Under the pieces are notes generated by a model, which was not told the origin of the DNA, made no database searches, and saw only the letters and a program-made list of their open reading frames with translations. Shown piece by piece: positions 15,490-47,487 of a stretch of 47,928 nt of DNA (positions within the stretch are counted from its first letter, which is position 1; each line of letters opens with the position of its first letter). The translations under genes and the position numbers were made by a program. Origin of the DNA: Candidatus Taylorbacteria bacterium RIFCSPHIGHO2_01_FULL_46_22b (lineage in GTDB: Bacteria; Patescibacteriota; Minisyncoccia; Phycocordibacterales; DSPV01); the NCBI GenBank assembly GCA_001820875.1, contig MHRF01000001.1:56899-104826 (forward strand). The letters are read 5' to 3'.

Positions 15490-15520
15490 GTATAGGAACA
15501 AGAGTAACAAATATTTACTC

Positions 15521-15660
15521 CTCTCGGCCAGAAATTCGACTCTTACAGAGTCAGTACCCCGATTGGTTTTTCTTTTCGCACAAGTGCTCAAGAAAAAGCT
15601 CAATCGGGCTTCGATTCTTGCACGGACGCGCTTAGGCACGTCCTCGAGAGGATTATTCCG
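15521..15660 (-). repeat. tRNA-tail structured repeat unit (Arg copy)
   Basis: Contains a tRNA-Arg 3'-end copy (ctctcggccagaaattcgac), hairpin gactcttacagagtc, core ccccgattggtttttcttttcgcacaagtgctcaagaaaaagctcaatcgggc and inverted T-arm ttcgattcttg. Confidence 0.8.
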
Positions 15661-15673
15661 TTTCACTCCACAA

Positions 15674-15745
15674 TCCTCTCGGCCAGAATCGAACTGGCAT
15701 CGTCTCCTTCGGAGGGAGACATCCTATCCATTGAACGACGAGAGG
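15674..15745 (-). tRNA. tRNA-Arg(CCG)
   Basis: Minus strand CCTCTCGTCGTTCAATGGATAGGATGTCTCCCTCCGAAGGAGACGATGCCAGTTCGATTCTGGCCGAGAGGA; anticodon loop CTCCGAA. Confidence 0.93.
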
Positions 15746-19278: not shown

Positions 19279-19459
19279 AGGAGAAAGGACTTGGTCACGA
19301 GTTTTTGGTCGACCATCGTCTCCCAAAACTCTCGACCCCGACTCGCCCGTTTTGCCTGCTGGCAAAACATGGCTCCGTCTTTCAAGTCCTCACGCGAGCA
19401 AAGCAATTTGCTCGCTTCCCGCAACAAAATCAAAAACCCCTTTCGGGGTTTCGATTTTG
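19279..19459 (-). repeat. Divergent tRNA-tail structured repeat unit (Leu copy)
   Basis: From the tRNA-Leu 3' end: hairpin acaaaatc...gattttgt, hairpin gcgagcaaa-gcaa-tttgctcgc, inverted T-arm ttcaagtcctc, distal partial direct copy gagaaaggacttgg. Confidence 0.55.
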
Positions 19460-19540
19460 TGCGCGGGAGAGGACTTGAACCTCCACGCCTTGCGGCATAC
19501 GCACCTCAAGCGTACGTGTATACCATTTCACCACCCGCGC
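19460..19540 (-). tRNA. tRNA-Leu(GAG)
   Basis: Minus strand GCGCGGGTGGTGAAATGGTATACACGTACGCTTGAGGTGCGTATGCCGCAAGGCGTGGAGGTTCAAGTCCTCTCCCGCGCA; loop CTTGAGG, long variable arm. Confidence 0.92.
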
Positions 19541-37048: not shown

Positions 37049-39682
37049 ATGCCGGTATTTTTAGACAGCACCAAACGCCGCAAGACCTATTTTCGAGTTG
37101 CGGTAGTCGCATGTTCGGCACTTCTTGTTGGAGGTGTCATTGGTTTTTCTCTGCTCCTTTTCCGAGGCGAACAAAAAAGACCTGTCGTTCGATATGAAAA
37201 TACGGCAGACTCGTATCTCTATTACTACAGCGGCGCGGGAGCAAAAAAAGTAGCGCTCACCTTCGACGACGGACCACGCTTTAAAATTACAGAAGAGTTG
37301 ATGGATATTCTCGAGGCGCAAAAAGCTCCGGCAACATTCTTCTTTCTCGGACAACACATACTCCTCCAGCCACATATCGCGTATGAAACTGCAAAGAGAG
37401 GTTTCATAATCGGCAATCATTCGTTCTCACATCTTGAAAATGTACACAAGACGCAAAAGCGTCTCGCGCTTGAACTGCGGTCAACTGGCTATCTGATTTC
37501 AAAAATTACTGGGACAAGTCCTGAATACTACCGGCCTCCTTTTCTCCTCGGCATCGGAGTCGATCCGACAGTAAATCCATACCTCCCGATCCCAAAGGAT
37601 GTTCTCTGGACACTCGAAAATGGATATGTGCCTGTCGGCTCCGACATTGATGCACGAGACTGGCTCGCCACTTCATCAGAAGCCGTACTTCTCGGAATCA
37701 AACAGGCAACAGAAGGATCCGCGCAGGGGCATATTGTGCTTCTACACGAAGAACGACATACCGTCGAAGCTCTACCTTCAATCATCTCGTATCTACGAGC
37801 AGAAGGGTACACCATTGTACCTCTGTCAGAATTACTCAACCCGCCCAAGACACTTGTACTCACCGATACACTGCAAACAGGAGATACTGATGCAACAACA
37901 AACGGACAAGTGTCTAAACTCCAGTGGTTTTTGTATAAAGCGGGCGAATTGGATCCGTATCTCATCACGGGAACATTCGGAGCGCAGACCATGAATGCCC
38001 TCGGTCGATACCAGCTCCGCACTGGCATTGTCGAACCAACCAATATTGATCCCTCACGTTTTGGCGTTACCGATCAGAGGACTCGCGAGGTGCTTGCCGA
38101 ACACGCGACAGAAGTTCTTGCGGGAACATCTGCACTCGCTCCCTCCAGCGCCACAGCCAACGTATGGCAAAACTCACAAGCATGGGTTGGAAATCTCGCA
38201 AGCAAGGCGTACATCAACCTGTTCCCCATTTTCAGAAATATTCTTGCATTCATGGTGATGTTTACGCTTCTTCTTGTAGTACTTCGAATAACTCTTCTCC
38301 TCACACTAATTGTCATAGGAAAATATAGGAAAGTCCAACCGCGTACTGAATATGATCATGACAAGAATCGAGGAATCTCGGTACTCATCCCCGCATATAA
38401 CGAAGCCGAAAACATCCGGTCCACAGTCGAAAGCGTTCTCGCAAGTGAATATGAAAAGAAAGAAGTCATTGTTATTGATGATGGATCAACTGACGCAACT
38501 GGAGACATCGTCCGCGCGACCATAGCCGCGCACCCCGAAGCGAATCTCAAGCTGATTCAGGTTGAAAACGGCGGAAAAGCTCGTGCGCTCAACCAAGGGG
38601 TTGCAGCGAGCCGATACGATATTTGTGCAGTGCTTGATGCCGATGCCGTGCTCCATTCCGAAGCTCTTCAGTATTTCGTACAGCATTTCAAAGACAAAGA
38701 TGTCGGTGCAGTTGCTGGAAAAGTGTATACAACCGGAAGCAAAAATTTGCTCGACCTCTTCCAAGCACTGGAATATGCTATGGGCCAAAATATCGACAAG
38801 CGCGCATTTTCAGTCATCGGATCAGTCGGCGTAGTCCCCGGCCCTGCAGGCGCATGGCGGAAAGAATATGTCCTTGCCGCGGGCGGGTTCAGCACTGATA
38901 CACTGGTTGAAGATCAGGACATGACATTAACGCTTCTTCATCAAGGAAAAAAAGTACACTATGAGGAACGGGCAATCGCCTACACCGAGACCCCTCACAC
39001 ACTTAAAAATTTCCTCAAGCAAAGGTTCCGCTGGATATACGGAACTATGCAGTGTTTCTGGAAACACAAGAGTATTTTCATAGAACAGCCTAAAAGCATG
39101 ATGAGTTTGGTAGTGCTGCCCAATGTTTTCTTTTTCAACATCATCATTCCGCTCACCTACCCGTTTGCAGACTCCGCACTCTTGTTCGGACTCATATTCA
39201 AAGACTGGACGAGTCTTGTGCTCCCTTTCCTCTTGTTCACTGTGTTTGATCTTACCTATGCGTGGTTCGGTGTAAGAAAAGAAGAGAAAAATTGGCGACT
39301 GCTTCTGATGGTACCCTTGCAACGTATTGTTTATCGACAACTCTTGTATATCACTGTCGCTCGAAGCGTTGTGCGAGCAATCGAAGGGATCGGATCGGGA
39401 TGGAATAAATTCCCCAAAATGGGAGAGACGCAGCGTTTTTATTTCTCGGCAGTTTCTTCTGGGACCGAGTCATACACAATGCATGAACCAATCGTAAGCT
39501 CCGTATTTATACCCACCAGTCAGCCGTCAGTGATTGAAACTCCGCCAAAGGCAGAGAGCGAACCACAGGTATTTGCAGAACTTCCTGCGCCAAAAGAAAT
39601 TTTGCTTGAAACAAACCCTACCGTATGGGCTCCTGACACACTGGCGCATCAACCGGACGAGCAGACAATTCATACCGCCTAA
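37049..39682 (+). CDS. Fused polysaccharide deacetylase - PG-binding - family 2 glycosyltransferase
   Basis: KVALTFDDGPRFKITEELMDIL...IGNHSFSHLENV; ISVLIPAYNEAENIRSTVESVLASEYEKKEVIVIDDGSTDATGDIV...AVLDADAVL...LVEDQDMTLTL...QRFRWIYG. Confidence 0.93.
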   Translation: MPVFLDSTKRRKTYFRVAVVACSALLVGGVIGFSLLLFRGEQKRPVVRYENTADSYLYYYSGAGAKKVALTFDDGPRFKITEELMDILEAQKAPATFFFLGQHILLQPHIAYETAKRGFIIGNHSFSHLENVHKTQKRLALELRSTGYLISKITGTSPEYYRPPFLLGIGVDPTVNPYLPIPKDVLWTLENGYVPVGSDIDARDWLATSSEAVLLGIKQATEGSAQGHIVLLHEERHTVEALPSIISYLRAEGYTIVPLSELLNPPKTLVLTDTLQTGDTDATTNGQVSKLQWFLYKAGELDPYLITGTFGAQTMNALGRYQLRTGIVEPTNIDPSRFGVTDQRTREVLAEHATEVLAGTSALAPSSATANVWQNSQAWVGNLASKAYINLFPIFRNILAFMVMFTLLLVVLRITLLLTLIVIGKYRKVQPRTEYDHDKNRGISVLIPAYNEAENIRSTVESVLASEYEKKEVIVIDDGSTDATGDIVRATIAAHPEANLKLIQVENGGKARALNQGVAASRYDICAVLDADAVLHSEALQYFVQHFKDKDVGAVAGKVYTTGSKNLLDLFQALEYAMGQNIDKRAFSVIGSVGVVPGPAGAWRKEYVLAAGGFSTDTLVEDQDMTLTLLHQGKKVHYEERAIAYTETPHTLKNFLKQRFRWIYGTMQCFWKHKSIFIEQPKSMMSLVVLPNVFFFNIIIPLTYPFADSALLFGLIFKDWTSLVLPFLLFTVFDLTYAWFGVRKEEKNWRLLLMVPLQRIVYRQLLYITVARSVVRAIEGIGSGWNKFPKMGETQRFYFSAVSSGTESYTMHEPIVSSVFIPTSQPSVIETPPKAESEPQVFAELPAPKEILLETNPTVWAPDTLAHQPDEQTIHTA

Positions 39683-42846: not shown

Positions 42847-43055
42847 ATTCGGTGCGCCCTAAGAGACTCGCTGACTACATCGGCAGGTGAGTTTCGACCT
42901 CGCCTCCCTTCGGTCGCGAGGTAACGAAACTCCTTTCGAGTCTCTTACGGAAGCACGCAGGTGCTTCCTAGGTCGCATTTCTCGCTTCGTGCCACAAAGG
43001 GGTACTTCTTGTTTTCTAATTCCCTCTGGTCATAAGAAAACAAAGTTGCTCGTAT
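42847..43055 (-). repeat. tRNA-tail structured repeat unit (Val, distal)
   Basis: Direct copy attcggtgcgccctaagagactcg (42847-42870), inverted ttcgagtctctta (42935-42947), hairpin ggaagcac-gcag-gtgcttcc (42949-42968). Confidence 0.8.
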
Positions 43056-43200
43056 GCGCCCTAAGAGACTCGAACCTTACAGGTTCAGTAACCCAATTGG
43101 ATTTTCTGTTCGCAGAAGCTCCAGAAAATGCTCAATCGGGCTTCGAGTCTCTTACGCATCGTGCATAGGCACGATGCTTGGGCACACCTCGAAAATTCGG
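43056..43200 (-). repeat. tRNA-tail structured repeat unit (Val, proximal)
   Basis: Direct copy gcgccctaagagactcgaac, small hairpin gaaccttacaggttc, core acccaattggattttctgttcgcagaagctccagaaaatgctcaatcgggc, inverted ttcgagtctctta, hairpin gcatcgtgcataggcacgatgc. Confidence 0.85.
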
Positions 43201-43274
43201 TGCGCCCTAAGAGACTCGAACTCCTGACCTTCCCCGTGTAAAGGGGCTGCTCTACCAACTGAGCTAAGGGCGCG
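43201..43274 (-). tRNA. tRNA-Val(TAC)
   Basis: Minus strand GCGCCCTTAGCTCAGTTGGTAGAGCAGCCCCTTTACACGGGGAAGGTCAGGAGTTCGAGTCTCTTAGGGCGCA. Confidence 0.94.
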
Positions 43275-46200: not shown

Positions 46201-46246
46201 CTCGGTAGGAATCGAGGCTTACAGCTTCAGTATCCCGATTGAGCTT
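46201..46246 (-). repeat. Truncated tRNA-tail structured repeat
   Basis: ctcggtaggaatcgaggcttacagcttcagtatcccgattgagctt shares cagtatcccgattg with the 47.2-kb units. Confidence 0.7.
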
Positions 46247-46281
46247 ATTTAGATATCAAGCCTGAGGCTGCTAGGTCGGGG

Positions 46282-47136
46282 TCAAATTCTAGGAATTTCT
46301 CTTAAAAATGTTTCTCCAAAAAAAGTATGCGCGATTTGAGCTTGGTTTTTAGCTCCATTTTCATCTGGAATATTTACAGTGGTGCTTATAAGACGTGCAA
46401 GTTTAAGATCAACCGGTGTATTTGTTCTCCATTCTTTTAGAATTTTTGCATCTCTAGGATCTTCATTAATCTGCAACAACTGATATCCAACTTCTATCAA
46501 ATCTTTTGCTTGATAAACGATTATATATCCATTGTCATAAATAATACGGTCTTGAGAAAACGCACAAACCCCGAGACCACCGGCACCAACTGTTCCTGAG
46601 CGTATTGCCTTCTCAAGAGATTCTCCAGATATCGCATGCACCAACAAACTATCCGATTCTATTGGTCTGTATACTCCGTTTCCAATCACACAATTAAAGA
46701 TCCCATCTTTTGAATGTGTTTCATAATAGCTATTAGGTACTTTCAGTAGATCTCTCTTAACTTGCTCCCCTCTTTTCTCAAGTTGAGAAGTATAATAAGT
46801 ATCTTGTTCTAATGTACTTACCATATCGGCTACATATTTAACACTCCACTCTTCAAACCCAAACTTTTCTTTTTGAAACTCATTTTCTTGGCTATATACA
46901 AATTGCAAATATCTATTCCAACCATCGATATCATTGGACAAATTATTTTTAGATATGGTATCTGGAGACAGATTACTAAATTCTCTCTCCCACATTTTAC
47001 TTAAAAAACTCTTTCTTTGCTCTCTTGCATGCTCAATAGCTTCGGTACGATTTAAGTTTGGAATATTGGAAATAAACCCCTCAATATCTATTGGATGTTG
47101 CTCACCATATTTAAACTGTGGCGATGTTTCTGACAT
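46282..47136 (-). CDS. Hypothetical protein flanked by tRNA-tail repeats
   Basis: 284-aa ORF; LLVHAISGESLEKAIRSGTVGAGGLGVCAFSQ. Confidence 0.7.
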   Translation of the reverse strand: MSETSPQFKYGEQHPIDIEGFISNIPNLNRTEAIEHAREQRKSFLSKMWEREFSNLSPDTISKNNLSNDIDGWNRYLQFVYSQENEFQKEKFGFEEWSVKYVADMVSTLEQDTYYTSQLEKRGEQVKRDLLKVPNSYYETHSKDGIFNCVIGNGVYRPIESDSLLVHAISGESLEKAIRSGTVGAGGLGVCAFSQDRIIYDNGYIIVYQAKDLIEVGYQLLQINEDPRDAKILKEWRTNTPVDLKLARLISTTVNIPDENGAKNQAQIAHTFFGETFLREIPRI

Positions 47137-47203: not shown

Positions 47204-47487
47204 GTGCCCTCGGTAGGAATCTCTCCCTACGGGAGCAGTATCCCGATTGGTTATTTTATTTCGCTTCGCTCATAAAATAAGCTCAATCGGGCTTCGATTC
47301 CTACACGCAAGCACGCGGGTGCGTCCTTGTAGGAAATACATATCGACCCTTACAGGGTCAGTATCCCAATTGGTTTTTCTTTTCGCGAAAACGCTCAAGA
47401 AAAAGCTCAATCGGGCTTCGATTCCTACACGCAAGCACGCAGGTGCTTGCTCGAGGGCAAAAATCTCCCTTCGCTCTATTTTTGCCC
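47204..47487 (-). repeat. Two tandem tRNA-tail structured repeat units plus hairpin gggcaaaaat...atttttgccc
   Basis: Two copies of the core (tatcccRattgg...gctcaatcgggcttcgattcctacacgcaagcacgc). Confidence 0.85.

Follow-up and report, generated by a model that had tools for sequence, protein, structure and literature searches.

The window analyzed here, a 47,928-nucleotide stretch of the genome of Candidatus Taylorbacteria bacterium RIFCSPHIGHO2_01_FULL_46_22b, carries on its minus strand a gene for tRNA-Val(TAC) (43199-43273; ARAGORN; Rfam RF00005, 65.7 bits), which anchors two tandem units lying 3' of it. Nucleotides (nt) 54-74 of the tRNA (43220-43200) constitute its resident 3' end, here called S. 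Read on the minus strand, the units share one order of parts: an inverted copy of the tRNA 3' end with a GC hairpin inside it, then the core hairpin and mini-hairpin, and last a direct copy (S') of that same 3' end. Unit 1 opens with the complement of the acceptor 3' strand (GGTGTGCCC, 43180-43188), an arrangement also found in 42 units of relatives, followed by the GC hairpin (GCATCGTGC-CTAT-GCACGATGC, 43156-43177) and the inverted copy of the T-arm (TAAGAGACTCGAA, 43142-43154), such that the hairpin interrupts the inverted copy exactly between its anti-acceptor and anti-T-stem parts. The class-A core hairpin comes next (GCCCGATTGAGC...CCAATTGGGT, 43091-43141; match to the covariance model R1, described below, at 43061-43155 with 100.7 bits), and then TACTG and the mini-hairpin AACCT-GTA-AGGTT (43073-43090), the third palindrome of the unit, which lies just before the direct copy (43055-43074). 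Unit 2, also on the minus strand, consists of an anti-acceptor segment TGCGACCTA with the GC hairpin GGAAGCAC-CTGC-GTGCTTCC (42949-42977), which interrupts the inverted copy at the same point, a second TAAGAGACTCGAA (42935-42947), a class-D core hairpin and mini-hairpin that differ from those of unit 1 (42871-42934), and the distal copy of the tRNA 3' end with its flank (CGAGTCTCTTAGGGCGCACCGAAT, 42847-42870).

The sequence CGAGTCTCTTAGGGCGC occurs exactly three times (42854-42870, 43056-43072, and 43202-43218), giving direct-copy spacings of 202 and 146 bp, against a chance expectation of 0.06 with 3 mismatches allowed, and three copies were seen in 0 of 100 shuffles. These exact copies and shuffles confirmed the original prediction that tRNA-Val is followed by two tandem "tail" units with direct and inverted copies of its 3' end. 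The distal copy is, as had also been claimed, identical over 24 nt to 43195-43218 and runs beyond the tRNA 3' end. Unit 1 folded far better than its own shuffles (z = -8.5).

Further units lie elsewhere in the window, all on the minus strand. One is found 3' of tRNA-Arg(CCG) (tRNA, 15674-15745; unit, 15519-15651; R1 match 15527-15623, 90.0 bits), and a divergent class-C unit, assigned by its inverted copy GAGGACTTGAA and the class-C consensus, lies 3' of tRNA-Leu(GAG) (tRNA, 19459-19540; unit, 19281-19440, ends approximate). A tandem pair with arms of the tRNA-Arg(TCT) type, with no recognizable tRNA adjoining, occupies 47334-47430 (R1, 89.5 bits) and 47204-47306, and the S' of the second unit (47204-47218) agrees at 15 of 15 positions with nt 60-74 of the tRNA-Arg(TCT) encoded in this genome. 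Between this pair and a decayed third unit of the same type (CAATCGGGATACTG-AAGCTGTAAGCCT-CGATTCCTACCGAG, 46203-46294; R1, 20.3 bits, E=0.004) there is a gene for 284 amino acids (46282-47136, minus strand), with no Pfam or PADLOC match, that is a candidate for cassette cargo. Elsewhere in the window, an 877-amino-acid open reading frame on the plus strand (37049-39682) resembles, by eye, a polysaccharide deacetylase fused to a glycosyltransferase.

A DNA search of the whole genome gave further copies at tRNA-Arg(CCG), Cys, Leu, Tyr, and Gly. Among its 46 tRNA genes, 22 have a downstream inverted match of at least 9 nt (26 as judged by eye), and the units each match their own tRNA: 19 tRNAs do so at 11 or 12 of 12 positions, compared with a mean of 0.9 and a maximum of 6 when the tRNAs were permuted. 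In a manual tally, none of the 8 tRNA genes with an encoded CCA has a unit, compared with 26 of the 38 without CCA. This striking relation is not a general rule, because it is weak in other genomes (17/43 versus 140/246).

A family restricted to one order of Patescibacteria

The original prediction had set the occurrence of units at other tRNA loci of related genomes, and a covariance-model and Rfam search, as checks. We built the covariance model R1 from an alignment (A1) of 13 class-A units from this genome, to which small manual changes were made (1 nt was removed from the Tyr unit and 4 nt from one orphan). With R1, 36 of 60 genomes from the same order proved to have units, up to 37 in a single genome; these counts are lower bounds because R1 covers class A and B cores only. 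In a 380-genome sample of the phylum, R1 detected units in 10 of the 17 genomes from this order and in 0 of the 363 genomes from outside it. A fixed-pattern search of GTDB genomes returned 48 stretches, and every informatively named record was from Patescibacteria (Taylor-, Zambryski-, Nomura-, Kaiser-, Lloyd-, and Vogelbacteria, among others). At the loci that we fetched, 157 of 289 tRNA genes had a downstream inverted match of at least 9 nt, compared with 3 of 289 in a reversed control; this is no census, because the loci were partly picked for bearing units. The reading of the tRNA-Val locus as a stacked array of very small tRNA-addressed units was therefore right, since units lie at many other tRNA loci, and an assembly artefact is ruled out because the family recurs in many independently assembled genomes. 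In Rfam, only tRNA and tmRNA families were matched and none corresponded to the units; we found no description of them in the literature, mostly open-access, and one exact core pattern had no match in IMG/VR, a single pattern being a weak test of viral carriage. Thus, the family is restricted to one order of Patescibacteria, a group of tiny and largely uncultured bacteria, and it looks like an undescribed family of miniature cassettes anchored at tRNA genes. It accounts for puzzling repeats adjoining tRNA genes in these assemblies.

To define the duplication, we compared S with S' in 41 units with a clean distal copy. Identity was near 1 from nt 60 through the acceptor strand, fell to 0.83 at nt 74, and was at background at nt 75 and to the left of nt 60; the profile was anchored on nt 61-70, so that nt 60 and nt 71 onward are its informative points. 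The direct repeat is therefore tRNA nt 60-74, a sharply bounded segment of 15 nt. At individual loci, the displaced copy of Leu-TAG keeps a CCA and the resident tRNA has none, and the distal copy of Gln-CTG, whose resident tRNA likewise lacks CCA, runs into a CCA and then a flank that matches the one next to the unit-free paralogue Gln-TTG.

Comparison of two species of one genus showed presence and absence of units at orthologous sites. Leu-CAA followed by miaA, and Pro-TGG followed by an epimerase-like gene, have the same synteny in both species and a unit in only one, and at Ser-GGA and Gly-CCC presence and absence are reversed between the same two species. No excised circle or within-strain polymorphism was seen, and the evidence for gain and loss is this presence or absence between species. 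In genome G025, the distal copy of an Arg-type array contains a Val-type cassette with its own S copy and spacer; the inserted cassette is identical at 150 of 170 positions to the native Val cassette, and several of the stem changes are compensated. The presence or absence at orthologous tRNAs, the Val-in-Arg insertion, and the displaced 3' fragments with their sharp 15-nt duplication support integration-like behavior at tRNA genes, as had been suggested from the tRNA-Val locus. That each unit is a classic integrase-targeted element is not supported, since no integrase travels with the units; in this genome no S-S' interval exceeds 330 bp, and in most unit-bearing genomes a single Xer was the only such enzyme found.

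In a few cases, spread over several genomes, one or two genes separate the tRNA from the unit. At three loci, S' matches nt 60-74 of the adjoining tRNA at 15 of 15 positions, with no better or equal match among 273 distinct tRNA 3' ends: Ser-GGA, with an SDR gene and the unit at 1169 bp; Ser-ACT, with a Zn-ribbon gene, a DUF6671 gene, and the unit at 1761 bp; and Asn, with a DUF4260 gene and the unit at 576 bp. A 147-amino-acid gene in the opposite direction follows tRNA-Trp, where S' matches at 14 of 15 positions and one other tRNA matches better, and 3' of a tRNA-Asn a TspO gene lies between two units (inverted copy, 12/12; distal copy decayed). A unit (1501-1580) also follows a tmRNA gene (locus L137, 1032-1428), and the target is thus a tRNA-like 3' end, not only tRNA genes.

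Taken together, these results suggest that the units serve as distal, right-end sites for miniature cassettes that are anchored in the tRNA T-arm and carry zero to two genes, a proposal to which we would give about an even chance. The cassette would occupy the tRNA gene at about nt 60 and supply its own nt 60-74, comprising the 3' strands of the T-stem and acceptor stem, N73, and C74, so that the tRNA would stay functional because the cassette brings this copy. The original 3' end would be pushed to the far side of the cassette, where it would be seen as S', and between the two copies there would be optional cargo, either a terminator-like hairpin alone or one or two genes, and then the unit. 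Arrays may lengthen both when units are duplicated in tandem and when a further cassette enters a displaced copy at its T-loop, and units may be lost by recombination between repeats. Mobile cassettes with the restore-and-displace logic of tRNA-integrating islands are the best-supported reading of the data, one that we hold with middling confidence, its mechanism being inferred.

Folding, descent, and other explanations

The structure of the units bears on whether they act as DNA or as RNA. In the 13 class-A units, 24 of 31 pairs change on both sides and 91% of cells pair, and the covariation score was reached by 0 of 500 shuffles, with strong compensatory change in both core and mini-hairpin. 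Across the order, the core conserves TACTG, the GTA triloop, and a GAG/CGAA internal loop; class-C units have the same plan with two hairpins. Covariation of this kind would be expected of a functional RNA, co-transcribed with the tRNA or made from its own promoter, that regulates tRNA folding or 3' processing, possibly as a strand-exchange switch in which the inverted copy has two possible partners, the 3' end of the tRNA itself and the distal copy. The minimum-energy fold does pair the inverted copy with the tRNA 3' end, and the GC hairpin, an insert of 21-26 nt in 34 of the 42 units of relatives in which both flanks could be located, sits where the D/anticodon domain of a tRNA would leave the helix. 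The pattern of descent in one genus, where units are present in 24 of 24 genomes and some loci are vertically inherited, is also as expected of a resident functional element and speaks against free mobility: the Thr-GGT unit is orthologous in four genomes, and its distal copy has changed once together with the tRNA acceptor.

Several observations count against this explanation. In relatives, many units lie beyond a terminator-like hairpin directly 3' of the tRNA, genes can separate tRNA and unit, units are absent from many genomes of the order, and they turn over at orthologous tRNAs. The inverted and the distal copy depart from the tRNA independently of each other, so the two are not maintained as a pair, and selection for their pairing is unsupported. 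Furthermore, G-T (G-U) pairs make up 0 of 510 mini-hairpin pairs, compared with 3% in the acceptor stems and 5% in the T-stems of tRNAs at the same loci, which suggests that selection or correction acts on the DNA; this is not decisive, because the model itself favors G-T. Core stems have 46 G-T versus 21 A-C mismatches (tRNA stems, 79 versus 5), an excess that is somewhat RNA-like. On balance, we consider a functional RNA rather unlikely as the basis of the family; under it, an RNA complementary to the tRNA's own 3' end would follow many of the tRNAs, which would also be new.

At G-U pairs of the tRNA, 28 of 33 informative positions in the inverted copy agree with an exact reverse complement of the tRNA 3' strand, and a copy of the tRNA 5' half (a split-tRNA mimic) is ruled out because the inverted copy tracks the reverse complement at these pairs. 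Template switching can create and correct perfect hairpins (PMC8794818) and could explain both the source and the upkeep of the inverted copies. It is also the center of an explanation that needs no dedicated mobility, in which slippage produces the 3'-end duplications, replication template switching makes the inverted arms and hairpins and keeps them perfect, and gene conversion homogenizes the cores. This fits the agreement with the 3' strand at G-U pairs; in addition, stem changes are mostly from one Watson-Crick pair to another, and cores cluster by genome, being most similar to a core at a different tRNA of the same genome in 36 of 121 cases, compared with 5 expected. Near-identical cores at two tRNAs of one genome can differ in their left parts, so that cores may spread by gene conversion and not by movement of whole cassettes. 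However, a mutational process alone does not predict a specific core shared across the order (TACTG, the GTA triloop, and the GAG/CGAA loop), and the gene-bearing cassettes and the Val-in-Arg insertion need transfer over a longer range. As an account of the whole family, we therefore regard these processes as improbable.

If the units are mobile cassettes, their movement would call for an enzyme, and we compared recombinase families between the 36 unit-bearing and 24 unit-free genomes. No tyrosine recombinase, serine recombinase, Y1, reverse transcriptase (RT), or Cas1 family is common to all unit-bearing genomes, apart from the housekeeping Xer, and a dedicated partner from any of them is accordingly rejected. 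Serine recombinases, RT, and Cas1 showed no association with units; RT is missing from nine unit-rich genomes and Cas1 from 35 of the 36 unit-bearing ones. Y1 showed a weak association (nominal p = 0.022, with five families tested), its genes being present in 29 of the 36 genomes with units and in 12 of the 24 without. Such RAYT-like genes, of about 220-250 amino acids, are common in the order (e.g., G047:C6, 32164-32400). Genome G047 also has three class-B cores (L117, L130, and L136), of which two are near copies of one another. Their arms are self-complementary and bear no relation to tRNA sequences, and they may be a stand-alone lineage of the family. Insertion of the IS200/605 type is not known to make a target duplication. 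The Y1 excess, the three G047 cores with non-tRNA arms, and the bulged, imperfect palindrome of the core would suit REP- or MITE-like non-autonomous hairpins moved by a Y1 (HUH, RAYT-like) transposase, with arms adapted secondarily to tRNAs, but four unit-rich genomes (G007, G013, G034, and G041) have no Y1 match, no unit lies beside 13 Y1 genes of other genomes, the only unit near the Y1 gene in G047 belongs to a tRNA-Val (so that a RAYT link there is rejected), and the units have a 15-nt target duplication, all of which makes this explanation very unlikely.

Almost all genomes carry a single Xer-type tyrosine recombinase (for example at L193, 6083-7003), and in those rich in units there is often no other; no Xer was detected in G455, an incomplete genome with 22 units. 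In the genome of the window, a second XerC lies beside a phosphoenolpyruvate-carboxykinase-like open reading frame in G000:C2 (L163, 1864-2721), a 13.8-kb contig that may be bin contamination. Under the cassette reading, movement would occur by site-specific recombination in trans, and folded DNA may be the recognized form. The housekeeping Xer is a candidate for the enzyme, by elimination only: it is the one recombinase that is nearly always present, and no dedicated recombinase tracks the units. A more specific version of the proposal is integron-like gene capture, with any tRNA or tmRNA gene as the entry platform, the folded unit as the recombination site, and a single housekeeping Xer acting on it; we put this forward as a tentative possibility. 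Were it true, gene-poor episymbionts could acquire single-gene cassettes without an integrase of their own. The cassette reading in general, if true, would imply a compact DNA-cassette system that occupies a large share of the tRNA genes in an order of reduced-genome bacteria, its sites following the sequence of each host tRNA. It would add a new class of structured non-coding repeats that Rfam lacks and a clean natural case for asking whether a housekeeping Xer can act on folded sites. It would also open a way for Patescibacteria to gain and lose genes without phages or large islands.

Comparison with known systems

The units share features with four known systems. Casposons, which are Cas1 transposons, also duplicate their target site at tRNA 3' ends (PMC4046053). 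Unlike casposons, the units have no terminal repeats or PolB, are much smaller, have a duplication that takes in the complete 3' strands of both the T-stem and the acceptor stem, and occur in genomes that, in 35 of 36 cases, lack Cas1. REP/RAYT palindromes and MITEs resemble the units in being short, non-coding, multicopy, tandem, and folded into imperfect, bulged hairpins, whereas the units have arms that match the adjoining tRNA, lie almost always at tRNA 3' ends, and show no consistent link to Y1.

The units also resemble integron cassettes and their attC sites in layout. Both form arrays of short cassettes in which a gene is followed by a folded site with structure conserved more than sequence; gene-less cassettes occur, and several of the genes are read in the direction of the array. 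In the present family, the folded site that stands after each proposed cassette is a covarying one. The differences are that there is no attI platform, the anchor being the T-arm of any tRNA; that a copy of the target is displaced; that no attC R-box was recognized when the core boxes were judged by eye; and that, in this genome, no integron integrase reached the NCBIfam cut-off (TIGR02249; its own Xer scored 143 bits against a cut-off of 265).

Genomic islands that integrate into tRNA and tmRNA genes by means of tyrosine integrases (Islander) follow the restore-and-displace logic described above (PMC4383910). Unlike these islands, the units belong to cassettes of about 0.1-1.8 kb without an integrase, end in a conserved folded structure that includes an inverted target copy, and reach half or more of the tRNA genes in a single genome. 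In both, a replacement tRNA 3' end is carried and the original displaced (PMC4383910), the crossover lies in the T-loop or T-stem, tRNA and tmRNA genes are targets, and insertions are stacked. The pairing of a regenerated 3' end with a displaced fragment, a feature of such islands, was found here both in the S/S' profile and at individual loci.
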